Source: Streptomyces sp. DT2A-34
GTDB taxonomy: Bacteria; Actinomycetota; Actinomycetes; Streptomycetales; Streptomycetaceae
Direction: 5' to 3'
Assembly: GCF_030499515.1 (NCBI RefSeq)
Contig: NZ_JASTWJ010000002.1
Span: forward strand, 90,653 to 154,652
DNA: 64,000 nucleotides
Under the pieces are notes generated by a model that made no database searches, was not told the DNA's origin, and worked only from the letters and a program-made list of their open reading frames with translations. Shown in pieces: positions 50,239 to 64,000 of the stretch; positions within the stretch are counted from its first letter, which is position 1, and each line of letters starts with the position of its first letter. A program made the position numbers and the translations under genes.

Positions 50239-50796
50239 CTACAGCTCGAACTCCAGGTGCATGATGTCGGTGAAGCGCACCTCCTCCAGCTGGCCGGCGC
50301 GGCGGCCGCCGTCTTGGAAGTACACCTCCTTGAGCGCTTCGGCGGCGATCTCCTGCAGATGCTGGTCGGTGGCGCCCTGCTCCTGGGCCTCGAAGAAGCG
50401 GGCTGCGTATTGGGGTGGCAGCGCCACGGTCAGGTGACGGAGCCGGTCCTCGTCAGTGGTGCCGACCGGCGCTTTGTAGCCGATCCGGGCGCGGGTGTCG
50501 ATGACGATGCCGCCGGTGGTCGCCGCCTTCTGCCGCGCCTGGGCGCGGATCTGCGGCTGCCACCGTGCCTTGACCTCGCGCTCCAGGCGGGCGGCGAGCT
50601 GCGGGCGGGGCTTCTTGGCCTCGTCCTTGACGTACCGCTCCACCTGGCGCTGGGACATTGCGAGCAGTTCGGCGACCGCCTTGGTGCCCTTGAGCTGCTT
50701 GACCAGGTACCGCATCTGAGCACCCGCGCGTTTGGGGGCCGGGCGGGTGAACGCCTTCTGCACCGCCTTGTCCAGGCCGTCCCCGAACAGGGTCAT
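50239..50796 (-). CDS. tpg: Telomere terminal protein Tpg
   Basis: The product has 185 residues, the standard Tpg length. RAGAQMRYLVKQLKGTKAVA and MSQRQVERYVKD form the N-terminal HTH-like DNA-binding part. LVKARWQPQIRAQARQ-type and HLTVALPPQYAARFFEAQEQ segments and a final EVRFTDIMHLEFEL complete the match to Streptomyces terminal proteins as I know them. Tpg is covalently attached to the 5' ends of linear replicons and primes end-patching. It lies 12 bases after tap in the same transcript. Confidence 0.93.
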   Translation of the reverse strand: MTLFGDGLDKAVQKAFTRPAPKRAGAQMRYLVKQLKGTKAVAELLAMSQRQVERYVKDEAKKPRPQLAARLEREVKARWQPQIRAQARQKAATTGGIVIDTRARIGYKAPVGTTDEDRLRHLTVALPPQYAARFFEAQEQGATDQHLQEIAAEALKEVYFQDGGRRAGQLEEVRFTDIMHLEFEL

Positions 50797-50808
50797 CGTC
50801 GCTCTCTC

Positions 50809-53061
50809 CTACTCTCCGTTGTCGACGTCGGTGACGGTGCCGTCCTTGATGTACCGGGCGAGGTTGAGCTCCGGGGCGTTGAACCGCTCGCGGACCTCTT
50901 CGCCCCACAGCACGCTCTGGGTGCCCTCGTGCTTGACCAGGCCCGGGTTGATGCCGAGCTTGAAGCCGCCGGGCAGCGGCTTGCCGTCCCGGTAGGGAAG
51001 GAAGTCCAGCGGGCTGTCGCCGTTGGCCGCGTACACGACGCAGTCGGAGAGGATCGCCACCGGGTACTGTCCGGTGAACGCCGCGTGCTTGACGATCTTC
51101 CGGTGCAGGTTGATCCGCGTGCGGGAGATGACCGCTGCACGGATGTCCGGCCGCCACGTCGGGCGGGACAGCGCCCGCCATGGCTGCCCGGGCTTCCAGC
51201 CCTCGCCCCGGGGGCGTTCGCGCAGCTTGCCGAGGCCGCCCTTGACCGTCGCCTTGATCGCCGAGACGGCGATCGCCAGCTGCGGGTCGCGCTCCTTGTA
51301 GCCGTCCATGGCTTCCAGGAAGTCGGCTGGGGACAGGTCGGCGTCGACGCCGAGGTCGGCCATCGTGGCGAGGTAGGCGTCGCGCAGGCGGTTGTACCAG
51401 GCGTCGAGGTAGCGGCCGTTGTCGTACCGCACGTATGCCTCGAGCGGCGCGACGTCGTAGCCGAGTTCCACCGCGTACGCCACCGTCGGCGTCGCGTACC
51501 AGGCCGGTCCTTCGGGGCGCTCGCCCTTCGGCGTGAACGGGCTGGGCAGCAGGCCGGCGTCCAGGTCCGTCCACTTGTCCTTGGCGACCTTCACGCGGGA
51601 CAGGTCGACGTGGGACAGGTCGACCAGCCAGCTTCCAGGGAGCTTCGGGTCGAACACCGGCTGCTTGACATGCGTCGGCTCGCCGAGGCCGAGGATCAGC
51701 CCGTTGGCGCCTGCGGCGAAGGCCATGTTGACGTCGATGCCGACGAGGTTGCGGCGCATGCATTCGTCGTCGGTGAGCGGGCGCGCCCAGTCGTAGGCCT
51801 CCTCGAGCAGCTTCTCCGCCGGTCCGCGGACGTGGAAGCGCGGCAGGTCATTGAGGAGCGGGTGCCCGTCCGGGGCCTCGCAGGGCGCGCAGTCCACCGG
51901 GTGCTCACCCAGTGAGCCGGGGTTCTTGCTGTCCGCCTTCCGGAAGCCGCCGGTGGCTTCGTCGCGCACGGCGTAGGTCGGTGGGTGCAGCGCGGTCATC
52001 AGCTCCAGGCCGGTCACGGCGGTGGAGCCGCGCGGCGTCATCACCCTCGACGCGTACACGCCCAGGAGCCGGCCGAGTTCCGCCGCCGGGAGCTGGGCAG
52101 CCTCGCCCCAGTGGCGGGAGTCGAGCGCGTGCCAGGACGGGATGCACAGCTGCACGCAGTTGCGCTCTGAGCCCTGCGCCGGGCGGTAGATCCTCGCCCA
52201 AGGCCCGAAGCCCCTTTTCGTGAGCTTCCAGTCGGCGCGGGCCAGCTGCTTGATGACCTTGTGGCTCTCCGGGATCCGTCCGGCGAGCTTCTCCTCATCG
52301 GTGAGGGCGACCGGCAGGCCGTAGCGCTCCAGCGCGGCCTTGGTGAGCACGATCAGCGGGTCGCCGTCTTTGCCCGGCCCGGACAGCTTTGGCTGCCCGA
52401 GCCTGGCCTCCTTCAGGGTCCAGTCGACCAGGGCCGGGATGGACTTGGCGGGCACGTCCAGGACCAGGCCACCGACGCAATACGCCAGTACGTGGCCGTC
52501 GTCGTCGACGTCGACGACCGCAAGCGGACCGTTGGCGAAGCGTGGATCGGCATTGGCGGGAGTGTTCTCCGGGGCGGCCTTCCGGGCGGCCGGGCGGCGT
52601 GACGTCGACGACGGTCTGGTGATGCGCGGCGGACGTGATGCGGCGGCCGAAGCAGCGGTGGTGGCGGTGGGGCGGGGTTCGGTGTTTTCGGAAGCAGCCA
52701 TGGTCACGGCCTCGGAGGCCGGGGCTGTGGACAGAGTCCGCGCTTCCGGAGCGGGGGCGGGGGTGCTCGCGGACGTCGCGGGAGCGGCCGTGTCGTGTAC
52801 CGGGGTTGTGGCGCTGGGATCGGCAGGGTAGAGCTCCACGAGCTTGCTGAGCAGGCGTGCGTACGCGTCACGCTCGGGGGGCCGGGGCTCCGTCTTGCCT
52901 GACTCCCAGGCACTGACGGTCGCCCGACGCACCTGCAGGGCCTCAGCCACTTCGTCCAGTGTGAAGCCGTGGGCCTGACGCAGCCGCTTGCGCTCCGCCG
53001 GTGGCGGAAGCACGGCACGGGACGCGATCAGCGCGTCGACCCGATCGAACAACTCGGGCAT
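50809..53061 (-). CDS. tap: Telomere-associated protein Tap
   Basis: ATG 53059–53061 has AGGAGGT five bases upstream; 750 residues. An XRE-like HTH is at ~20–60 (LRQAHGFTLDEVAEALQVRRATVSAWESG). An alanine/proline/threonine linker follows, then a large domain with the Tap features WARIYRPAQGSERN, ALHPPTYAVRDEATGGFR and GIDVNMAFAAGANGLILGLG. Tap binds telomeric 3' overhangs and recruits Tpg. The pair is strong evidence that this DNA comes from a linear Streptomyces replicon. It may sit near one end, or have been carried in by a linear plasmid. Confidence 0.93.
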   Translation of the reverse strand: MPELFDRVDALIASRAVLPPPAERKRLRQAHGFTLDEVAEALQVRRATVSAWESGKTEPRPPERDAYARLLSKLVELYPADPSATTPVHDTAAPATSASTPAPAPEARTLSTAPASEAVTMAASENTEPRPTATTAASAAASRPPRITRPSSTSRRPAARKAAPENTPANADPRFANGPLAVVDVDDDGHVLAYCVGGLVLDVPAKSIPALVDWTLKEARLGQPKLSGPGKDGDPLIVLTKAALERYGLPVALTDEEKLAGRIPESHKVIKQLARADWKLTKRGFGPWARIYRPAQGSERNCVQLCIPSWHALDSRHWGEAAQLPAAELGRLLGVYASRVMTPRGSTAVTGLELMTALHPPTYAVRDEATGGFRKADSKNPGSLGEHPVDCAPCEAPDGHPLLNDLPRFHVRGPAEKLLEEAYDWARPLTDDECMRRNLVGIDVNMAFAAGANGLILGLGEPTHVKQPVFDPKLPGSWLVDLSHVDLSRVKVAKDKWTDLDAGLLPSPFTPKGERPEGPAWYATPTVAYAVELGYDVAPLEAYVRYDNGRYLDAWYNRLRDAYLATMADLGVDADLSPADFLEAMDGYKERDPQLAIAVSAIKATVKGGLGKLRERPRGEGWKPGQPWRALSRPTWRPDIRAAVISRTRINLHRKIVKHAAFTGQYPVAILSDCVVYAANGDSPLDFLPYRDGKPLPGGFKLGINPGLVKHEGTQSVLWGEEVRERFNAPELNLARYIKDGTVTDVDNGE

Positions 53062-53256
53062 GAAACACCTCCTGTGCCTCAACCATAGTCTGAAGCGCAT
53101 GTTTTGCGTACTAATAGCGTACGACCAGCGTGCGGAGCCTTTTGGCGGGTGACTCGACGTAAGCCACTTGAAGCCCGTACGAGGGGTCCAGAAGAGGACG
53201 TCCTGTTCAAGATCAAGTGAGCTGCGGCGTCTTTCGCCCGAGCGGCTGTCGCACAC

Positions 53257-54508: not shown

Positions 54509-54772
54509 GTGACGATCTTGCCGCCCGATCCGGACCTCACTGCGCTGCGGTTCGAACTCGCGCGCCTGCGGGCCGCGCGCGGGTGGAGCTATGACGAGCT
54601 TGCTTCCCGCAGCGGCCTGGCCAGACGCACCGTCATCGAGATCGAGCAGGGCCGCACCATCGGCACGCTGAAGACCTGGCACGCTCTCGCCCACGCCCTG
54701 AGCACCCCGCTCGACGAGCTCTTCAGGACCCTGTGCCGCGGGCACGACCTGCCCGGCCCGGCCCAAGACTGA
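54509..54772 (+). CDS. Small XRE-family HTH protein
   Basis: GTG 54509 gives 87 residues consisting almost entirely of an HTH: RFELARLRAARGWSYDELAS, then RSGLARRTVIEIEQGRTIG and TWHALAHALSTPLDELF. This is the length of a Cro/C-protein type regulator. It lies 15 bp after the last palindrome of the operator region, so autoregulation and control of the divergent gene are likely. Confidence 0.75.
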   Translation: MTILPPDPDLTALRFELARLRAARGWSYDELASRSGLARRTVIEIEQGRTIGTLKTWHALAHALSTPLDELFRTLCRGHDLPGPAQD

Positions 54773-58163: not shown

Positions 58164-58281
58164 CCAGCCCGCGCCCATGGCCGCCGGGGACAGCTGCCAC
58201 ACGAGAGGTGCGGCTCGTCCGAGAAGACCACTGCCGGTGGCTGGCCCGCCGGTCCAGCCCCGTGCGCGTGCTCCGATGTCA

Positions 58282-58364
58282 GCGGCCAGTTGGATTTCCC
58301 CACTCGCGGCCACTTCGTCTCCCCACCACGGCTACTTCAATTCCCCACTGGCGGCCACTTCGTG
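58282..58364 (+). repeat. Left-end array of ~22–23-bp repeats
   Basis: Units begin at 58282, 58306, ~58328 and 58351 and follow the pattern GCGGCCAnT...TTCCCCAC. The CCCC blocks fall at 58298, 58321 and 58343, a 22–23-bp period. The last unit is partial. They look like transposase binding sites. Confidence 0.8.
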
Positions 58365-58378
58365 TACGCAGCGTGAGG

Positions 58379-58924
58379 TCACCCTCGGCGTTGTTCGCCC
58401 CACCACGGCAGGATCGGAGGCAGGTCGCTGAGGCCGCGGGCCGGCCGCTTCGGCATCGGGGACTCCCCATCGTCCCCGTCCCAACGGCGCGCGTACTGGT
58501 CCGGGAGGCTGCCCCAGCCCCAGTAGGGAACCGGGCGGTCGGCCACCTCGCCGAGTTCCTCGAGGGGATCAATACGCTTCTCCGCCACCGTGCACAGGTG
58601 CGCCCAGTCATCGCCCATGTCGAAGACATAGGCGAACTGTTCGCCGGCCTGCAGCCTGTTCAGCTTGGTCACATGGCCGTCCACGGTGCCGTCCGGGGCC
58701 TCGCCGTCCCACCAGTCCAGCGGGCTGACGTGGGTGGCGTCGGACAACGTGAACAGGTGCAGGTGAGCCAAGTCCCAGCGTGCGAAGCCGAGATCGATGG
58801 CCGACGCGAGCTGCGCGAAGGAGTGCGACCGAGCAGCGGCGAACACCCGGCCGGGACGCGGCCACAGGTCCGCACCGTGACCGGAGACCAACTCCACCCG
58901 GATCGACAGCCAGGTACGAGCCAC
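58379..58924 (-). CDS. pRiA4b ORF-3-like / IS1096 passenger TnpR-like protein
   Basis: The product has 181 residues. TWLSIRVELVSGHG, SFAQLASAIDLGFARWDLAHLHLF and FAYVFDMGDDWAHLCTVAEKR are the conserved blocks of the PF07929 family (pRiA4b ORF-3-like), proteins often found as passengers of insertion sequences and of unknown biochemistry. It is the only gene of the 763-bp cassette and is oriented against its left end. Confidence 0.8.
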   Translation of the reverse strand: MARTWLSIRVELVSGHGADLWPRPGRVFAAARSHSFAQLASAIDLGFARWDLAHLHLFTLSDATHVSPLDWWDGEAPDGTVDGHVTKLNRLQAGEQFAYVFDMGDDWAHLCTVAEKRIDPLEELGEVADRPVPYWGWGSLPDQYARRWDGDDGESPMPKRPARGLSDLPPILPWWGEQRRG

Positions 58925-58991
58925 GTCATTAACCCCCTCATGCGCCAGATCCGCGAGCCAGCACCGAGGCTACTGAGTGTGACTGCGGACT

Positions 58992-59039
58992 GGGGAATCG
59001 AGCTGGCCGTACGTGGGGAATTTCTACTGGCCGCCGTCA
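58992..59039 (-). repeat. Right-end array of ~23-bp repeats
   Basis: Two inverted copies of the left-end unit: GGGG blocks at 58992 and 59015, 23 bp apart, each followed by AAT...TGGCC. Opposite in orientation to the left array, as expected for a transposon's two ends. Confidence 0.78.
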
Positions 59040-59140
59040 CTCCGACTTGCCCTCTGGCAGAAGGCACTGCTGACTGCCGCGCCCGGACCACACGCGTAAG
59101 ATTCTCTATCGATAAAGCTGGCCTCGCAGGTCAGCAAGGC

Positions 59141-59230
59141 GTTATCCCCACGTAAGTAGGGGTCTCTCCACGGCCGCACCACCGGTGGCGTCACCACCTG
59201 GTTGTTCCCCACGCGGGTGGGGATCCGGCA
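59141..59230 (+). CRISPR. Minimal type I-E-like CRISPR: two repeats, one 32-nt spacer
   Basis: Repeat 1 is 59141–59169 and repeat 2 is 59202–59230, with a spacer at 59170–59201. The conserved CCCCACG starts at 59146 and 59207, exactly 61 bp apart, the type I-E unit (29-nt repeat plus 32-nt spacer). Repeat 2 (TTGTTCCCCACGCGGGTGGG...) has the I-E hairpin CCCCAC/GTGGGG. Repeat 1 is degenerate (CCCCACGTAAGTAGGGG). An A/T-rich leader-like stretch (59101–59120) precedes it. No third repeat occurs at the expected positions on either side. Degenerate short arrays with one guide are typical of CRISPR-associated transposons. Confidence 0.7.
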
Positions 59231-59426
59231 AGCCGGCTGCTGAGCATAAGCGGGCGCCGGTCGAGCACAGCTTCTTGGACCTAGACGGGGCTCCGGGGCC
59301 AACCGGCCCGTGTGATGCGTTGGCTGGGCGGGCTGGTCGTTGTTCGACCCCTCCGGGGGTGGGCGTGCCAGCCACTCCCCCACTTTGAGGGTCACCGGGC
59401 GTTGGAGTATCGGATAGCTGCCGGTG

Positions 59427-59455
59427 CCGCACCGCCAGCTCCGGTGGCGGTGCGG
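59427..59455. terminator. Hairpin after the transposition operon
   Basis: CCGCACCGCCA (59427–59437) and its exact complement (59445–59455) with a 7-nt loop. It lies 25 bp past the tnsC-like stop, in the direction of the operon. No T-run follows. Confidence 0.6.
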
Positions 59456-59480
59456 ATGCGTCCAGACGCCGGGCAGCGCT

Positions 59481-60350
59481 TCAGTCGGTGTGACGTTGGG
59501 TGGGGTCAAGGCGGCTGAGGACGGCGCGCACAATGTCCCGGCTGTAAGGAGGGAGCGGTGTGGCCGCGCCGCGTGGGGTGGGCGGGTTCGTCGGACCCGT
59601 GCTACCGGCTCCCTTCGAGCCGGGGCCGCCGTGCTGTTCCCGGAGCAGGTAGGTGATTTTGGCCCACTGGCGGAAGTTGCCGTGGCAGGCGACGTCGTCG
59701 ATCCACAGCAGTTCGTCTGCGGGTACGTCCGCCCACAGCGGGTGGTACTCGGGGATGGTGGTGAGGACTTCGGCGGGTGTGAGGGGCTTGTAGCGCTGCC
59801 AGACGAGGATGCGGGAGTCCAGAGCAGGACGGTTCTTGATCTTCTGGTAGCAGGTTTCGGCGCCGACCAGGACGACGGCGAGGCGGGTGTCTTCGTCGTC
59901 CCAGAGCTCGCGGATGAATTCGAAGGCCCGTGTGTCCAGCCACTGGGCTTCGTCGACGACCAGGACGCGCGGGGTTTGCGACAGGGCTTCCTTGAGGATG
60001 GTTTCGCAGCGGGCGCTGTTGAGGGGGGCCTCGCCGGGCAGGTCGAGCTTTTTGTACAGGGAGGCGCGCAGGGCCTGGATTTTGGCGGAGCCGACTTTGA
60101 TGCGCAGGGTGGTGTGGGGGGCGAGGTCGTCGAGGTGGCTGTTGACGGCGAAGGTCTTGCCCAGGCCGACGCCGCCGTGGACGCACATGATGGCGCCCTT
60201 GCCGGCGTCGGCGTTGAGGGTGGTGACAAGGTTGGCGTAGGTCTCTGCGCTGGCCTGGGTCAGCATGGCGCGGGCGCCTGGCAGGCCCATGTAGTGGTAG
60301 TTCGGGCCAGCGGTCGGCTGGTTTTCGGGCGTGGTGGTCGGGTGGGTCAC
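59481..60350 (-). CDS. tnsC: TnsC/TniB/MuB-like AAA+ ATPase
   Basis: GTG 60348–60350 overlaps the transposase stop (GTGA); 289 residues. Walker A HGGVGLGKT is at 58–66 and Walker B PRVLVVDEAQWLD at ~127–139, with an AAA+ sensor region VVLVGAETCYQKI. The order and length match the transposition regulators that select targets and activate a TnsB/MuA partner. The larger frame up to 60971 is a shadow of the transposase. Together with the upstream cas6e this is the TnsB–TnsC core of a possible CRISPR-guided transposon. No TniQ is present inside the window. Confidence 0.88.
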   Translation of the reverse strand: MTHPTTTPENQPTAGPNYHYMGLPGARAMLTQASAETYANLVTTLNADAGKGAIMCVHGGVGLGKTFAVNSHLDDLAPHTTLRIKVGSAKIQALRASLYKKLDLPGEAPLNSARCETILKEALSQTPRVLVVDEAQWLDTRAFEFIRELWDDEDTRLAVVLVGAETCYQKIKNRPALDSRILVWQRYKPLTPAEVLTTIPEYHPLWADVPADELLWIDDVACHGNFRQWAKITYLLREQHGGPGSKGAGSTGPTNPPTPRGAATPLPPYSRDIVRAVLSRLDPTQRHTD

Positions 60351-61933
60351 TCGGTGTCCTGGGGTTTGGGGTCGGGCCGGGGCTTGGTCCAGCGGGCGGA
60401 GTCGGGCTGGGGCCGGTTGAGGAGGTCGGGCCGGGCCTCGGCCTGCAGGTGACCTTCCGGTGTCTGCAACTGGCGTAGCTGGGCGGCTGCCTGGCTGGCG
60501 GTGAGCCGGTTGAGGGGTTCGGGCGCGGCGGCGACGCTGGTGGCGGCGTAGCGGGGTGTGGCGTTCTTGCGTGCTCGGCGGGCTTTGGCGGCGTAGCGGT
60601 CGGCTTCGCGTCGGCGGGCGTTGCGCAGTGCGCGGGCTTGGCGGGGGCTCATCTCGTCGCTGCGGAAGGCGGGTCCGCGGTAGGTGAGGGTGTCGGCGTC
60701 GTAGAGTTCGACGCGGTGGTAGTGGTGGGGTTCGTGGCGCAGGCGGACCATCTCGCCGGCGCTTGAGTGGCCGTGCATCCAGTCGCCGACGTAGTAGGCG
60801 CTTTTCCAGCGGACGCCCTTGCTGGTGATCTTCCGGGGTGGGCCGGCATCGGTGAGGGTGTAGGTGTGCAGGTCGGCGGGGTCGAGAGTGTCGATGGGGG
60901 TGAGGTCGGCGTGCCAGGCCTGGGCGGGGGTGCGCCGGTGGAGGCGGGCGATGGTGTGGTCGTTGTTCCACCAGTCCACCCAGTCGAGGACGACGGTGAC
61001 GAAGGTTTCGTAGTCGAGGAGGTCGTTAAGGGCCCATAAGGGCTGGCCGCGGCGGTCTCGGCGGCTTCGGGGGGTGTGGGCGTAGCCGGGCAGTCCTTTG
61101 AACAGCATGTGCTTGGCGGCGCCGTTGATGGCTTCGACGGTGCCTTTGAGGTGGGGGCTGTAGGGCGGCAGGACGATCAGTTCGGTGCCGAACTTTTTGA
61201 ACGCCTCGTCCACGCACCTGCCCAGGAAGTCGCGGCCGCGGTCGGTGCGGATCTTGCGGGGGATGCCTCCGAAGGGCCGGTGGTGATCCGTGCAGAGGAT
61301 GGCGTCGCGGGCGGCGGCCAGGATGGCGTCCTGGCTGGGCTGGTGGGGGGTGATGGCCAGCCCGCAGATGACGGCGGTGGTGTGGTCGATGAACCAGGTG
61401 ATCCAGGGTTTGCGGCGGCGGCCGTCGATGTTGACGAAGACGCTGGCTTCGACGTGGTCGGTCTCCCAGACGTCGTTGCGGTTGCCGTGCGGGCGCAGGG
61501 CGTGCACGTCGTGTCGGCGGCGGGCGGCTTCGCCTCCTCTGAGGGCGGCACGCTGGCCGGGCGTGAGTTCCCGGTCTACGGCACGGTAAAAGGTTGCCTG
61601 TGATACACGGGGCGGGTTGCCAAAGATGCCGTCGGCGACGAGTTCGCGGTAGGTGGCTGCGGCGTTGCCGTTCCATCGGGCCAGGGCTTCGTGCATGGCC
61701 GGGGTGAGGGTGAAGTGGCGGCGGCCTTGGGGGGTGTAGGTGCCGTTGTGGGTGGTGGCGTTGTCCATCCAGCGGCGCACGGTGCGCCAGTGGACGGTGA
61801 AGGCGGCGGCGACGGTACGCACGTCGTAGTGGGTCAGGCGTTCGGCATTACGCAGGCGCAGTAGGCGGCGTACGGCGGCGGCGCGCAGGGAGGTGGTGTC
61901 GTAGGGGCCGTCGGGTGGTGGTGTGGCGGGCAC
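60347..61933 (-). CDS. tnsB: TnsB/TniA/Mu-type DDE transposase
   Basis: GTG 61931–61933; 528 residues. N-terminal HTH segments (LTHYDVRTVAAAFTVHWRTVRRW) come before an rve-type catalytic domain with Asp159 (VWETDHVEA), Asp231 (KIRTDRGRDF) and Glu267 (KGTVEAING), 35 residues between the last two. A Mu-transposase C-terminal beta-barrel with VRLRHEPHHYHRVELYD follows, then a basic tail expected to contact TnsC. The gene starts 46 bases after the cas6e stop on the same strand and overlaps tnsC, so cas6e–tnsB–tnsC form one operon. Confidence 0.9.
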   Translation of the reverse strand: MPATPPPDGPYDTTSLRAAAVRRLLRLRNAERLTHYDVRTVAAAFTVHWRTVRRWMDNATTHNGTYTPQGRRHFTLTPAMHEALARWNGNAAATYRELVADGIFGNPPRVSQATFYRAVDRELTPGQRAALRGGEAARRRHDVHALRPHGNRNDVWETDHVEASVFVNIDGRRRKPWITWFIDHTTAVICGLAITPHQPSQDAILAAARDAILCTDHHRPFGGIPRKIRTDRGRDFLGRCVDEAFKKFGTELIVLPPYSPHLKGTVEAINGAAKHMLFKGLPGYAHTPRSRRDRRGQPLWALNDLLDYETFVTVVLDWVDWWNNDHTIARLHRRTPAQAWHADLTPIDTLDPADLHTYTLTDAGPPRKITSKGVRWKSAYYVGDWMHGHSSAGEMVRLRHEPHHYHRVELYDADTLTYRGPAFRSDEMSPRQARALRNARRREADRYAAKARRARKNATPRYAATSVAAAPEPLNRLTASQAAAQLRQLQTPEGHLQAEARPDLLNRPQPDSARWTKPRPDPKPQDTE

Positions 61934-61979
61934 TCGTCGGGGTCTTTCTTGGGGTGGCGCACGTCGGGGCGCGGGTGGG

Positions 61980-62621
61980 TCAGGCGGGGGCGAGGGTGAG
62001 CAGGCCGGCGCCGTAGGGCTTGCCGCGGCCGATGCCGGTGAGCAGGGCGTGGCTGAGTTGGTCGGGGTCGGTGATGGTGGCCAGGCCGTCGAAGCGGGTC
62101 AGTGCGTGCATGGGGCCGGGAGAGTGGGCTTGTTCGCCGGGCTTGTCGGCGCGGCGGCGTGTGCGGGGGAAGCGGGCGGGGGTGATGTCGGTGGTGGCCA
62201 GGGTGAGGCCGGCTTGGTGGGCGCGGCGCTGCCACCAGGCGAGGGCGTCGTCGCCGTAGAGCGCGACGATTTTTCTGCCGTGCTTGTTGTCGACGGGGTG
62301 GTGGTCGTCCAGGACGCGGCGGGCGGCGCTGGCGTTCGCGGTGATGCGGTAGCGCACCGCTCGGCCGGGGGTCAGGGCCTGGAACATGGGGTGCAGGGGT
62401 CGGGTTTCGGCGGTGCCGTAGTGGTGGGGCAGGCGGGTGAGGTCGGGCGGCTGGTGGGACTGGACGAGCAGGGTGGGTGGGGTGCCTTCGGTGGCGTCTT
62501 CCAGGCGGAAGAGCAGGCCGGCCTGCTGCCGGGGGTTTTCGCCGAGGTCGTCGGGGCCAGGAGCATCACGCTCTTGTGCAGGCTGACGGCGTCGGCCAGG
62601 TCACGGCGGGCGGCCGGGCTG
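61980..62621 (-). pseudogene. cas6e: Type I-E Cas6e (CasE), frameshifted and truncated by an IS
   Basis: The C-terminal frame (MFQALTPGRAVRYRITANAS ... ALTRFDGLATITDPDQLSHA, then GIGRGKPYGAGLLTLAPA) is the standard end of Cas6e, including the glycine-rich loop. Reading back, the same frame continues to DDLGENPRQQAGLLFRLED near 62562, where one base is missing. Before it, in the neighbouring frame, is SPAARRDLADAVSLHKSVMLLAP, the N-terminal part. The first few residues and the start are removed by the IS256-family element at 62622. Cas6e cuts the CRISPR repeat hairpin and stays bound in Cascade. Here it cannot be made whole. Confidence 0.8.
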
Positions 62622-62647
62622 GGGACTGTAAATCGTTCGGTGTAACT
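62622..62647 (+). repeat. Left inverted repeat of the IS256-family element
   Basis: 26 bp, matching the right end at 21 positions; GGTGTAACT at its inner end is identical in both. Confidence 0.85.
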
Positions 62648-62654
62648 CCCGATC

Positions 62655-63962
62655 ATGGAAGATGCACCGATGACCAGTGAGAACGTGGCCGAGCACGAGG
62701 TCGGCGAGTCGGCGGCGGCTGTGTCGGCGAAGGCCGTCGACGACCAGCTGATCGACGAGTTGGTGAGCCGGGCGCAGGCAGAGGGTCTGCAGCTGACCGG
62801 TGAGGGCGGGCTGCTCCAGCAGCTGACCAAGCGGCTGCTGGAGTCCGCCCTGGAGGGCGAGATCACCGACCACCTCGGCTATGACAAGCACGATCCGGCG
62901 GGCAAGGACGGCGGCAACTCCCGCAACGGCAAACGCTCCAAGACCGTGCTGACCGAGGTTGGGCCGGTGGAGATAGCCGTGCCCCGAGACCGGGACGGCT
63001 CGTTCGAGCCGAAGATCGTCAAGAAGCGGCAGAAGCGCCTGACCGGCGTCGACGAGATGGTGATCTCGCTTGCCGCGAAGGGCCTGACCACCGGCGAGGT
63101 CCAGGCCCACCTGGCCGAGGTCTACGGCGCCGAGGTCTCGCGGCAGACCATCTCCACCATCACCGACAAGGTCCTCGAGGGCATGGCCGAATGGCAAAGC
63201 CGCCCACTCGACGCCGTCTACCCGGTGGTCTTCATCGACGCCATCCACGTGAAGATCCGCGACGGCGCAGTCGCCAACCGGCCCATCTACGTGGCCCTGG
63301 CCGTGACCGTCGAGGGCCGGCGCGAGATTCTGGGCCTGTGGGCCGGCGACGGCGGGGAGGGTGCCAAGCACTGGCTGCACATCCTCACCGAGATCAAGAA
63401 CCGCGGCGTCGCTGACGTGCTGATGCTCGTCTGCGACGGGCTCAAGGGACTGCCCGAGGCGGTGGAGACGGTCTGGCCCCGCACCATCGTGCAGACCTGC
63501 GTGGTCCACCTGCTGCGGAACTCCTTCCGCTATGCCGCCCGCCAGGACTGGGACAAGATCGCCAGGCTCCTCAAGCCCGTCTACACCGCGCCGACCGAGG
63601 AGGCCGCCCTGGACCGGTTCGCGGAGTTCGCCGACGCCTGGGGCAGGAAGTATCCGGCGATCGTCAAACTCTGGGAGAACGCGTGGGAGGAGTTCACTCC
63701 GTTCCTGCGCTTCGACACCGAGATCCGCCGCATCGTCTGCACCACGAACGCGATCGAGTCGGTCAACGCCCGCATCCGGCGGGCAGTCAAGGCCCGCGGA
63801 CACTTCCCGAACGAGCAGGCCGCCTTGAAGTGCGTCTACATGGCCATCATGTCCCTCGATCCCACCGGCAAGGGCCAAGCCCGATGGACCATGCGCTGGA
63901 AGACCGCGTTGAACGCCTTCGACATCACCTTCGACGGCCGGCTCTCAGCGGCCCGCCACTAA
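62655..63962 (+). CDS. IS256-family (mutator-type) transposase
   Basis: The product has 435 residues, full length. DDE residues: Asp195 (VVFIDAIHVKIRD), Asp261 (VLMLVCDGLKG) and Glu368 (TTNAIESVNARIRRAV), with the CVVHLLRNS block of the family between. The N-terminus has the typical GEITDHLGYDKHD and GNSRNGKRSKTV segments. ATG 62655 is eight bases inside the left repeat; ATG 62670 (MTSENVAE) is an alternative start. It is intact and could be active. Confidence 0.93.
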   Translation: MEDAPMTSENVAEHEVGESAAAVSAKAVDDQLIDELVSRAQAEGLQLTGEGGLLQQLTKRLLESALEGEITDHLGYDKHDPAGKDGGNSRNGKRSKTVLTEVGPVEIAVPRDRDGSFEPKIVKKRQKRLTGVDEMVISLAAKGLTTGEVQAHLAEVYGAEVSRQTISTITDKVLEGMAEWQSRPLDAVYPVVFIDAIHVKIRDGAVANRPIYVALAVTVEGRREILGLWAGDGGEGAKHWLHILTEIKNRGVADVLMLVCDGLKGLPEAVETVWPRTIVQTCVVHLLRNSFRYAARQDWDKIARLLKPVYTAPTEEAALDRFAEFADAWGRKYPAIVKLWENAWEEFTPFLRFDTEIRRIVCTTNAIESVNARIRRAVKARGHFPNEQAALKCVYMAIMSLDPTGKGQARWTMRWKTALNAFDITFDGRLSAARH

Positions 63963-63974
63963 CCCAACCACCCC

Positions 63975-64000
63975 AGTTACACCGTTCGTTTGACAGACCC
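63975..64000 (-). repeat. Right inverted repeat of the IS256-family element
   Basis: 26 bp ending on the final base of the window; complement of the left repeat at 21 of 26 positions. Confidence 0.85.

Follow-up and report, generated by a model that had tools for sequence, protein, structure and literature searches.

A truncated type I-E CRISPR operon ending in tnsB-tnsC in Streptomyces, and a possible role of such operons against linear plasmids

The locus in Streptomyces sp. DT2A-34

The 64,000-nucleotide stretch analysed here (hereafter the window; positions 90,653 to 154,652 of contig NZ_JASTWJ010000002.1, assembly GCF_030499515.1) carries, close to its right-hand end, the truncated end of a type I-E clustered regularly interspaced short palindromic repeats (CRISPR) operon, in which a damaged cas6e is followed by the transposase gene tnsB, the ATPase gene tnsC and a one-spacer array. 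An original prediction, made from the sequence alone, had described cas6e, a tnsB 46 bp further on, an overlapping tnsC and a two-repeat array of I-E type, and domain matches and the sequence bear out this layout:

59126-59138, plus strand: leader-proximal motif GCAGGTCAGCAAG, directly 5' of the first repeat (read from the sequence)
59141-59169, plus strand: CRISPR repeat 1, with the handle GTCTCTCC, near the GTCTGTCC of relatives (read from the sequence)
59170-59201, plus strand: spacer of 32 nt, matching an XRE/helix-turn-helix (HTH) regulator gene of sister linear plasmids
59202-59230, plus strand: CRISPR repeat 2, diverged (read from the sequence)
59481-60350, minus strand: tnsC, AAA ATPase of 289 aa with Walker A and B kept (AAA_22)
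60347-61933, minus strand: tnsB, DDE transposase of Mu/TnsB type, 528 aa, D/D/E kept (rve, Mu-transpos_C, PADLOC TnsB 1.6e-12)
61980-62621, minus strand: cas6e remnant, C-terminal part (identified alike by Pfam, NCBIfam and PADLOC)
62622-64000, plus strand: insertion sequence element of the IS256 family, which terminates both operon and contig (its transposase at 62655-63962)

The Cas6e remnant matches the Pfam CRISPR_assoc model at 1.3e-36 and TIGR01907 above its cut-off, and the array at 59141-59230 consists of two I-E-like 29-nt repeats around one 32-nt spacer and is read on the plus strand, away from the leader motif; all three features are those of type I-E. The gap between cas6e and tnsB is 46 bp and tnsC overlaps tnsB by 4 bp. 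Among solved structures the best match of a TnsB profile is the TnsB of 7svw (1.1e-25), which we take to be the protein of a V-K CRISPR-associated transposon (CAST), and TnsC searched alone against solved structures gave no match.

The 5' end of cas6e is cut by an exact IS256 copy, and the remaining part is matched in two frames. Five more full copies of this element lie on contig C1, and the last base of the window's own contig (C2, 154,652 bp) is window base 64000, inside the IS256 copy; a contig end at such a repeat may conceal the rest of the operon. No sequence follows base 64000, beyond which the original prediction proposed to look for cas8e, cas11, cas7, cas5 and tniQ. The original prediction had taken the absence of Cas3 as a hint of a CAST, but this absence is no evidence, because the contig ends before the position of cas3, and cas3 is present in 17 of 23 linked relatives. 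A cas3-less system was thus rejected as a reading of what is an assembly edge. In the window's own assembly neither a second cas6e nor, in a weak search, a cas8e was found, and with its cas6e broken the CRISPR system of this strain looks dead.

The operon in related genomes

A profile of 38 TnsBs led to 41 tnsB loci in named genomes (numbered L below), 22 of which have cas genes directly upstream, one begins at tnsB and 18 are without cas genes in the stretch examined. The intact order, cas3-cas8e-cse2-cas7-cas5-cas6e-tnsB-tnsC, is also found in an independently annotated plasmid copy; cas3 is visible in 17 of the 23 linked loci, the remaining six being damaged or truncated at a contig end, and in all loci intact at this point tnsBC come after cas6e. 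In I-E operons this place, after cas6e, is normally that of cas1-cas2. Relatives with the full operon have a TnsB up to 98% identical to that of the window. Among 150 relatives of the window genome, a TnsB at 1e-120 occurs in 3, the window genome itself included. Damage is seen in the window, L019, L021 and L036.

The CRISPR-linked TnsBs are one clade. In an unrooted maximum-likelihood tree of 40 TnsBs, the 24 linked rows (window and L092 included) and the 16 cas-free rows are split on one branch with a support of 100/100, and the labels change once, against 12.9 times in shuffles. The linked clade spans Streptomyces, Kitasatospora and Actinacidiphila, with TnsB identity down to 42%. The D/D/E residues are conserved in all 33 TnsBs aligned, Walker A and B in all 32 TnsCs aligned, and the Cas3 motifs in 14 of 15 Cas3s; the Cas3 of Streptomyces sp. 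SID12488 (L035:1450-4389) has lost the HD and GGHHG motifs, which all of the other 14 retain. Cas1 was matched in only three of the 23 host genomes, the same three with the I-E and the Pfam models of Cas1 (an Escherichia coli control was positive), and is absent from the other 20 by both models; Cas2 was not searched for. TniQ models match in 12 of the 23 host genomes, never in the locus, the nearest match on the same contig being about 22 kb off.

Relation to known systems

The locus type is not new. As told in two reviews (PMC12231136, PMC8730458), Faure et al. described in 2019 an I-E variant of Streptomycetaceae with cas3 and an array in which tnsB-tnsC replace cas1-cas2; transposon ends were not detected, TnsBC were proposed as an alternative adaptation module, and according to the same reviews no experiments on such variants had been published. 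The loci studied here agree with that variant: I-E effector genes are followed by tnsB-tnsC (cas6e in the window, the full operon in relatives), cas3 and the lack of Cas1 are seen in relatives (17/23 loci and 20/23 genomes, respectively; the window ends before cas3), and an array is present and no ends are detected. In contrast, the window copy is truncated and broken, and the variant as recounted in the reviews comes with no spacer targets, repeat comparison or TnsB tree. As far as literature searches reach, what is new is the single linked TnsB clade, the 20 of 23 genomes without Cas1, the arrays of diverged repeats in 15 of 15 loci, the spacer matches to tnsB/tnsC and helicase genes, the AAN beside them and the match of the window spacer; the searches found no earlier report of spacers directed at tnsB/tnsC. 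The cas3-less Streptomyces I-E loci vaguely remembered in the original prediction do appear in the reviews (PMC12231136, PMC8730458), but as a separate variant linked to STAND NTPases.

The canonical I-E systems of Streptomyces (L082-L085) share effector genes, a 29-nt repeat, 32-nt spacers and the leader motif with the TnsBC-type loci, and differ in having Cas1, near-identical repeats and spacers that do not favour tnsBC (1/129). One of their arrays, with 57 repeats (L082, G008:C1:92000-111999), lies about 50 kb from the TnsBC-type locus of Streptomyces sp. HM190, which makes this strain a natural setting in which to look for crosstalk between the two kinds of locus. In CASTs of types I-B, I-D, I-F and V-K, TnsB and TnsC likewise adjoin Cascade or Cas12k genes, whereas the I-E/tnsBC loci keep Cas3, have no TniQ in the locus and show no ends. 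Cas-free tnsB-tnsC loci, found in actinobacteria and on linear plasmids, have related TnsB and TnsC proteins, but fall on the other side of the TnsB tree, lack cas genes and in some cases carry tandem end-like sites; they are what spacers of the linked loci match.

Arrays and repeats

An array lies upstream of cas3 in all 15 loci that have more than 300 bp there (L058 and L074, with 207 bp upstream of cas3, are excluded from this count); it reads away from cas3 and has a 61-nt period. The array finder always yields some best repeat, and support comes from the hairpin together with this period. Among the 84 repeats of L065-L067 the stem is kept, with two to five repeats broken at each pair and eight cells in which both sides of a standard pair are changed. 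The repeats of L059, L060 and L072 are near-identical at one end of the array and worn at the other, the pattern expected of polarised growth, as seen in some arrays. Several TnsBC-type arrays, the window array and canonical arrays have a motif like CAGGTCA-nAAG ahead of their first repeat, the canonical Streptomyces I-E arrays having a similar GCAGGTCAC-AAG; the canonical repeats themselves differ from those of TnsBC type.

Spacers were counted where repeats are at most 75 nt apart (177 spacers, wider gaps being dropped), and those of 28-37 nt (174) form the set used for matching; for canonical arrays the chaining distance was 59-63 nt, and spacer lengths of the two kinds are therefore not compared like for like. 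The L030 and L033 loci are 95% alike and have no identical spacer in common among the 16 and 12 read (L066/L067), while a few spacers of L066/L067 match in the same register with changes (e.g. 28/32), as though each had been acquired independently from its own variant of a single gene. In the 46-repeat array at L065:7240-7710 one spacer occurs twice with a single change, beside differing repeat variants, and L066 likewise has a duplicated near-identical spacer, a different one from that of L065.

Targets of the spacers

The 174 spacers were scanned against 1.55 Mb of DNA at a threshold of 78% or more. Ten have a match in cas-free tnsB or tnsC, at seven different sites, nine of the ten beside AAN, compared with a mean of 0.33 (0-1 each) in 12 shuffled sets. 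A further 19 spacers match other DNA, linked tnsC genes among it, compared with a mean of 3.2 in the shuffled sets. Two short CRISPR-linked stretches, L077 and L078, were tallied as cas-free bases, and their sole match is below the threshold. Among 129 canonical I-E spacers, one matches tnsB/tnsC and eight match other DNA. AAN, the protospacer-adjacent motif (PAM) of a Streptomyces I-E system (PMC12231136), stands on the 5' side at 47 of 52 tnsB/tnsC sites, AA being about 2% of the dinucleotides there. Since this DNA had been chosen by TnsB likeness, the count was redone on 179 kb of three linear plasmids, in which seven of the 174 spacers (five sites) match the 6.9 kb of tnsB and tnsC and six match elsewhere, two of these in a helicase gene; AAG or AAA flanks all 21 tnsB and tnsC places, and the canonical spacers match tnsBC in 0/129 cases and elsewhere in three. 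Matches to present-day genes reach 31/32.

One tnsB spacer matched 25 of 72,556 plasmid records, 21 of them from Streptomyces, with a transposase annotation at 12 of the best 15 of the 25 and AAG at all three sites read. One match, in NZ_CP134205, carries no annotation, has a cas3 close by and possibly represents a spacer in some other array. A second spacer matched 116 records of the same collection, 111 of them from Streptomyces; 110 cover most of the spacer, two without mismatch, and six of the best 10 of the 116 are annotated as helicase.

The window spacer is common to L016, L019 and L023 and, judged by eye, is not clearly better conserved than its flanks. In its L016 form it matches a small HTH gene at 28-31 of 32 positions on L018, L020, L021, L030, L079 and L080, with AAC beside five of the six sites and AGC in L030, and the L034/L069 array has a spacer in the same register of this gene. 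Against the plasmid collection, HTH regulators are hit in seven of the best 60 of 441 records, the best match included. A homologue of the XRE gene lies in the window itself (54509-54772, plus strand), and its corresponding site (54648-54679) matches at 22/32 and carries AGC instead of AAC; elsewhere in the genome no site came within three mismatches. A spacer that matches sister plasmids while the own copy has diverged fits competition between related linear replicons. Two other uses of this spacer were considered and rejected: a homing guide, the matched gene having no fixed distance from the locus, and a self-regulating guide, the own site being 22/32 without AAN and the genome holding no other.

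Transposon ends and cas-free tnsBC loci

Of 14 pairs of loci compared, 10 lose their common sequence shortly after tnsC, 6-200 bp on and not at one fixed point, and the other four are close relatives; this comparison thus gave no shared transposon end, though a different, undescribed end sequence might escape it. Tandem 25-bp TnsB sites are a feature of 11 of 18 cas-free loci, but were seen neither in 42 linked stretches (overlapping ones counted) nor in eight cas-free plasmid loci; because the plasmid loci lack cas and sites alike, this test is weaker than it would seem. We speak of cas-free tnsBC loci since inverted ends were not detected at those on plasmids, which are possibly plasmid backbone. 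In L097, L098 and L099, for instance, tnsB-tnsC and a following gene of about 370 aa lie near linear-plasmid ends, have no detectable inverted ends and are perhaps backbone rather than a transposon; the third gene has no Pfam match, and its predicted fold (mean predicted local distance difference test score, pLDDT, 49) was not used. Strain CB01373 has a second tnsB (L057:8656-10560), about 40% identical, directly before its CRISPR array, and by eye there are end-like tandem sites between the two.

Interpretation and alternatives

We put at about even chances the interpretation that the window holds the truncated end of an I-E operon in which TnsB-TnsC replace cas1-cas2 and have a predicted part in spacer acquisition, the Cascade-Cas3 side being directed against competing linear plasmids. 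On this view, any incoming or co-resident linear plasmid with a spacer match beside AAN would be cut by Cascade and Cas3, and TnsBC would provide the memory step in place of cas1-cas2. Interference against plasmids is suggested because spacers match their tnsB, tnsC, helicase and regulator genes with the PAM; the guides of intact relatives match transposase and plasmid-end genes of other linear plasmids, so the system likely fights rival plasmids. The memory role is predicted from the position of TnsBC, the missing Cas1, the turnover of spacers and the kept active sites, with the leader motif as a further indirect sign. A further step, which we hold to be rather doubtful, is that TnsB-TnsC are a second, independently recruited adaptation machine that, through its action on the DNA of related TnsBC-bearing replicons, biases memory towards tnsB/tnsC; if true, a captured transposase would vaccinate its plasmid against that plasmid's own relatives. 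The target list shows what at least part of the arrays records, namely rival linear-plasmid genes, tnsB and tnsC among them, and concrete spacers, a PAM and target replicons are now at hand for tests of interference and of acquisition free of Cas1-Cas2.

Several observations weigh against this interpretation. The integrase role of TnsBC is only predicted from sequence, a published hypothesis that is now testable, and Cas1 in 3 of 23 genomes makes a supply in trans, now or earlier, possible. Repeat identity within TnsBC-type arrays is 0.67-0.88, against 0.95-0.99 in five canonical arrays from three Cas1-positive genomes, and diverged repeats are odd for active acquisition because each acquisition should copy a repeat. 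Towards cas3, repeat identity rises in two of 14 arrays, falls in one and has no trend in 11, and in only six of 14 do adjacent repeats resemble each other more than expected by chance (p<0.05). The 32-nt length of 137 of the 177 spacers, together with PAM anchoring, is what Cas1-Cas2 would give. On the side of the targets, the 1.55 Mb scanned were collected by TnsB likeness, and at least 145 of the 174 spacers are without a match there at 78%; the linear-plasmid test has an inside control, but covers only three plasmids, likewise chosen by TnsB. The helicase-spacer sites carry TAG, TTG or TAA, not AAN, and one leader-proximal L059 spacer gave no phage match and only weak plasmid matches.

Part of this evidence would also suit an anti-plasmid I-E system in which TnsBC do something else, such as competing with related TnsBC elements, and spacers come from Cas1-Cas2 in trans, an explanation we regard as tentative yet realistic. 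It would account for spacer length and PAM anchoring and for spacers that target tnsB and tnsC themselves, and the Cas1 of three hosts adjoins canonical arrays whose leader junction resembles the TnsBC type; however, Cas1 was not found in 20 of 23 genomes, the canonical repeats seen are unlike the TnsBC-type ones, and tnsBC stand after cas6e wherever that part is intact. That tnsB-tnsC instead adjoin a decaying CRISPR locus by chance or travel with it as hitch-hikers, without joint function, is very improbable: damaged loci and drifted repeats are to be seen, but the single linked clade spans three genera and, over identities as low as 42%, has conserved operon order and active sites. The transposase as a chance neighbour, named beforehand as what would refute the original prediction, is likewise not what is indicated by the single linked clade and by the 22 of 41 loci whose tnsB has cas genes directly before it.

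A CAST, in which Cascade would guide TnsBC and the whole locus would be inserted beside matched sites, is improbable as well. TnsB and TnsC adjoin Cascade genes, the TnsB is like that of CASTs, and a 2024 review lists I-E among the subtypes captured by Tn7-like transposons and states that CAST I-D can work without TniQ. Guided transposition is nevertheless unlikely, Cas3 being kept (motifs conserved in 14/15) and TniQ missing from the locus in the 23 genomes searched; the end points after tnsC differ, tandem TnsB-site pairs are found in 0/42 linked stretches and 11/18 cas-free loci (though also not in the eight on plasmids), and the matched regulator gene lies at a varying 4.0-7.7 kb from tnsC in the TnsBC-type loci L018, L020, L021 and L030. 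The intact relatives, which were to be checked for tniQ and flanking ends, thus show neither TniQ in the locus nor a shared end, and CAST identity was rejected on these grounds and the retention of Cas3. Of the "remnant of a CRISPR-associated transposon with type I-E ancestry" first proposed, the I-E ancestry, the stable tnsB-tnsC operon and the status as a remnant are supported, and the guided transposon is not.

Other features of the window

Next to the array, a 764-bp insertion at 58276-59039, not in L016, has CTCCG on both flanks, TGTCAG.../...CGTCA ends with repeated GGCCACTTC-type units and one open reading frame (58379-58924, minus strand); we presume it to be an IS21-type passenger element. 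Genes at 50239-53255 are conserved with L023 and L030 and seem to resemble the telomere pair Tap-Tpg. The start of contig C2 is palindrome-rich, and from these palindromes and the Tap-Tpg-like genes the contig may be a linear plasmid.

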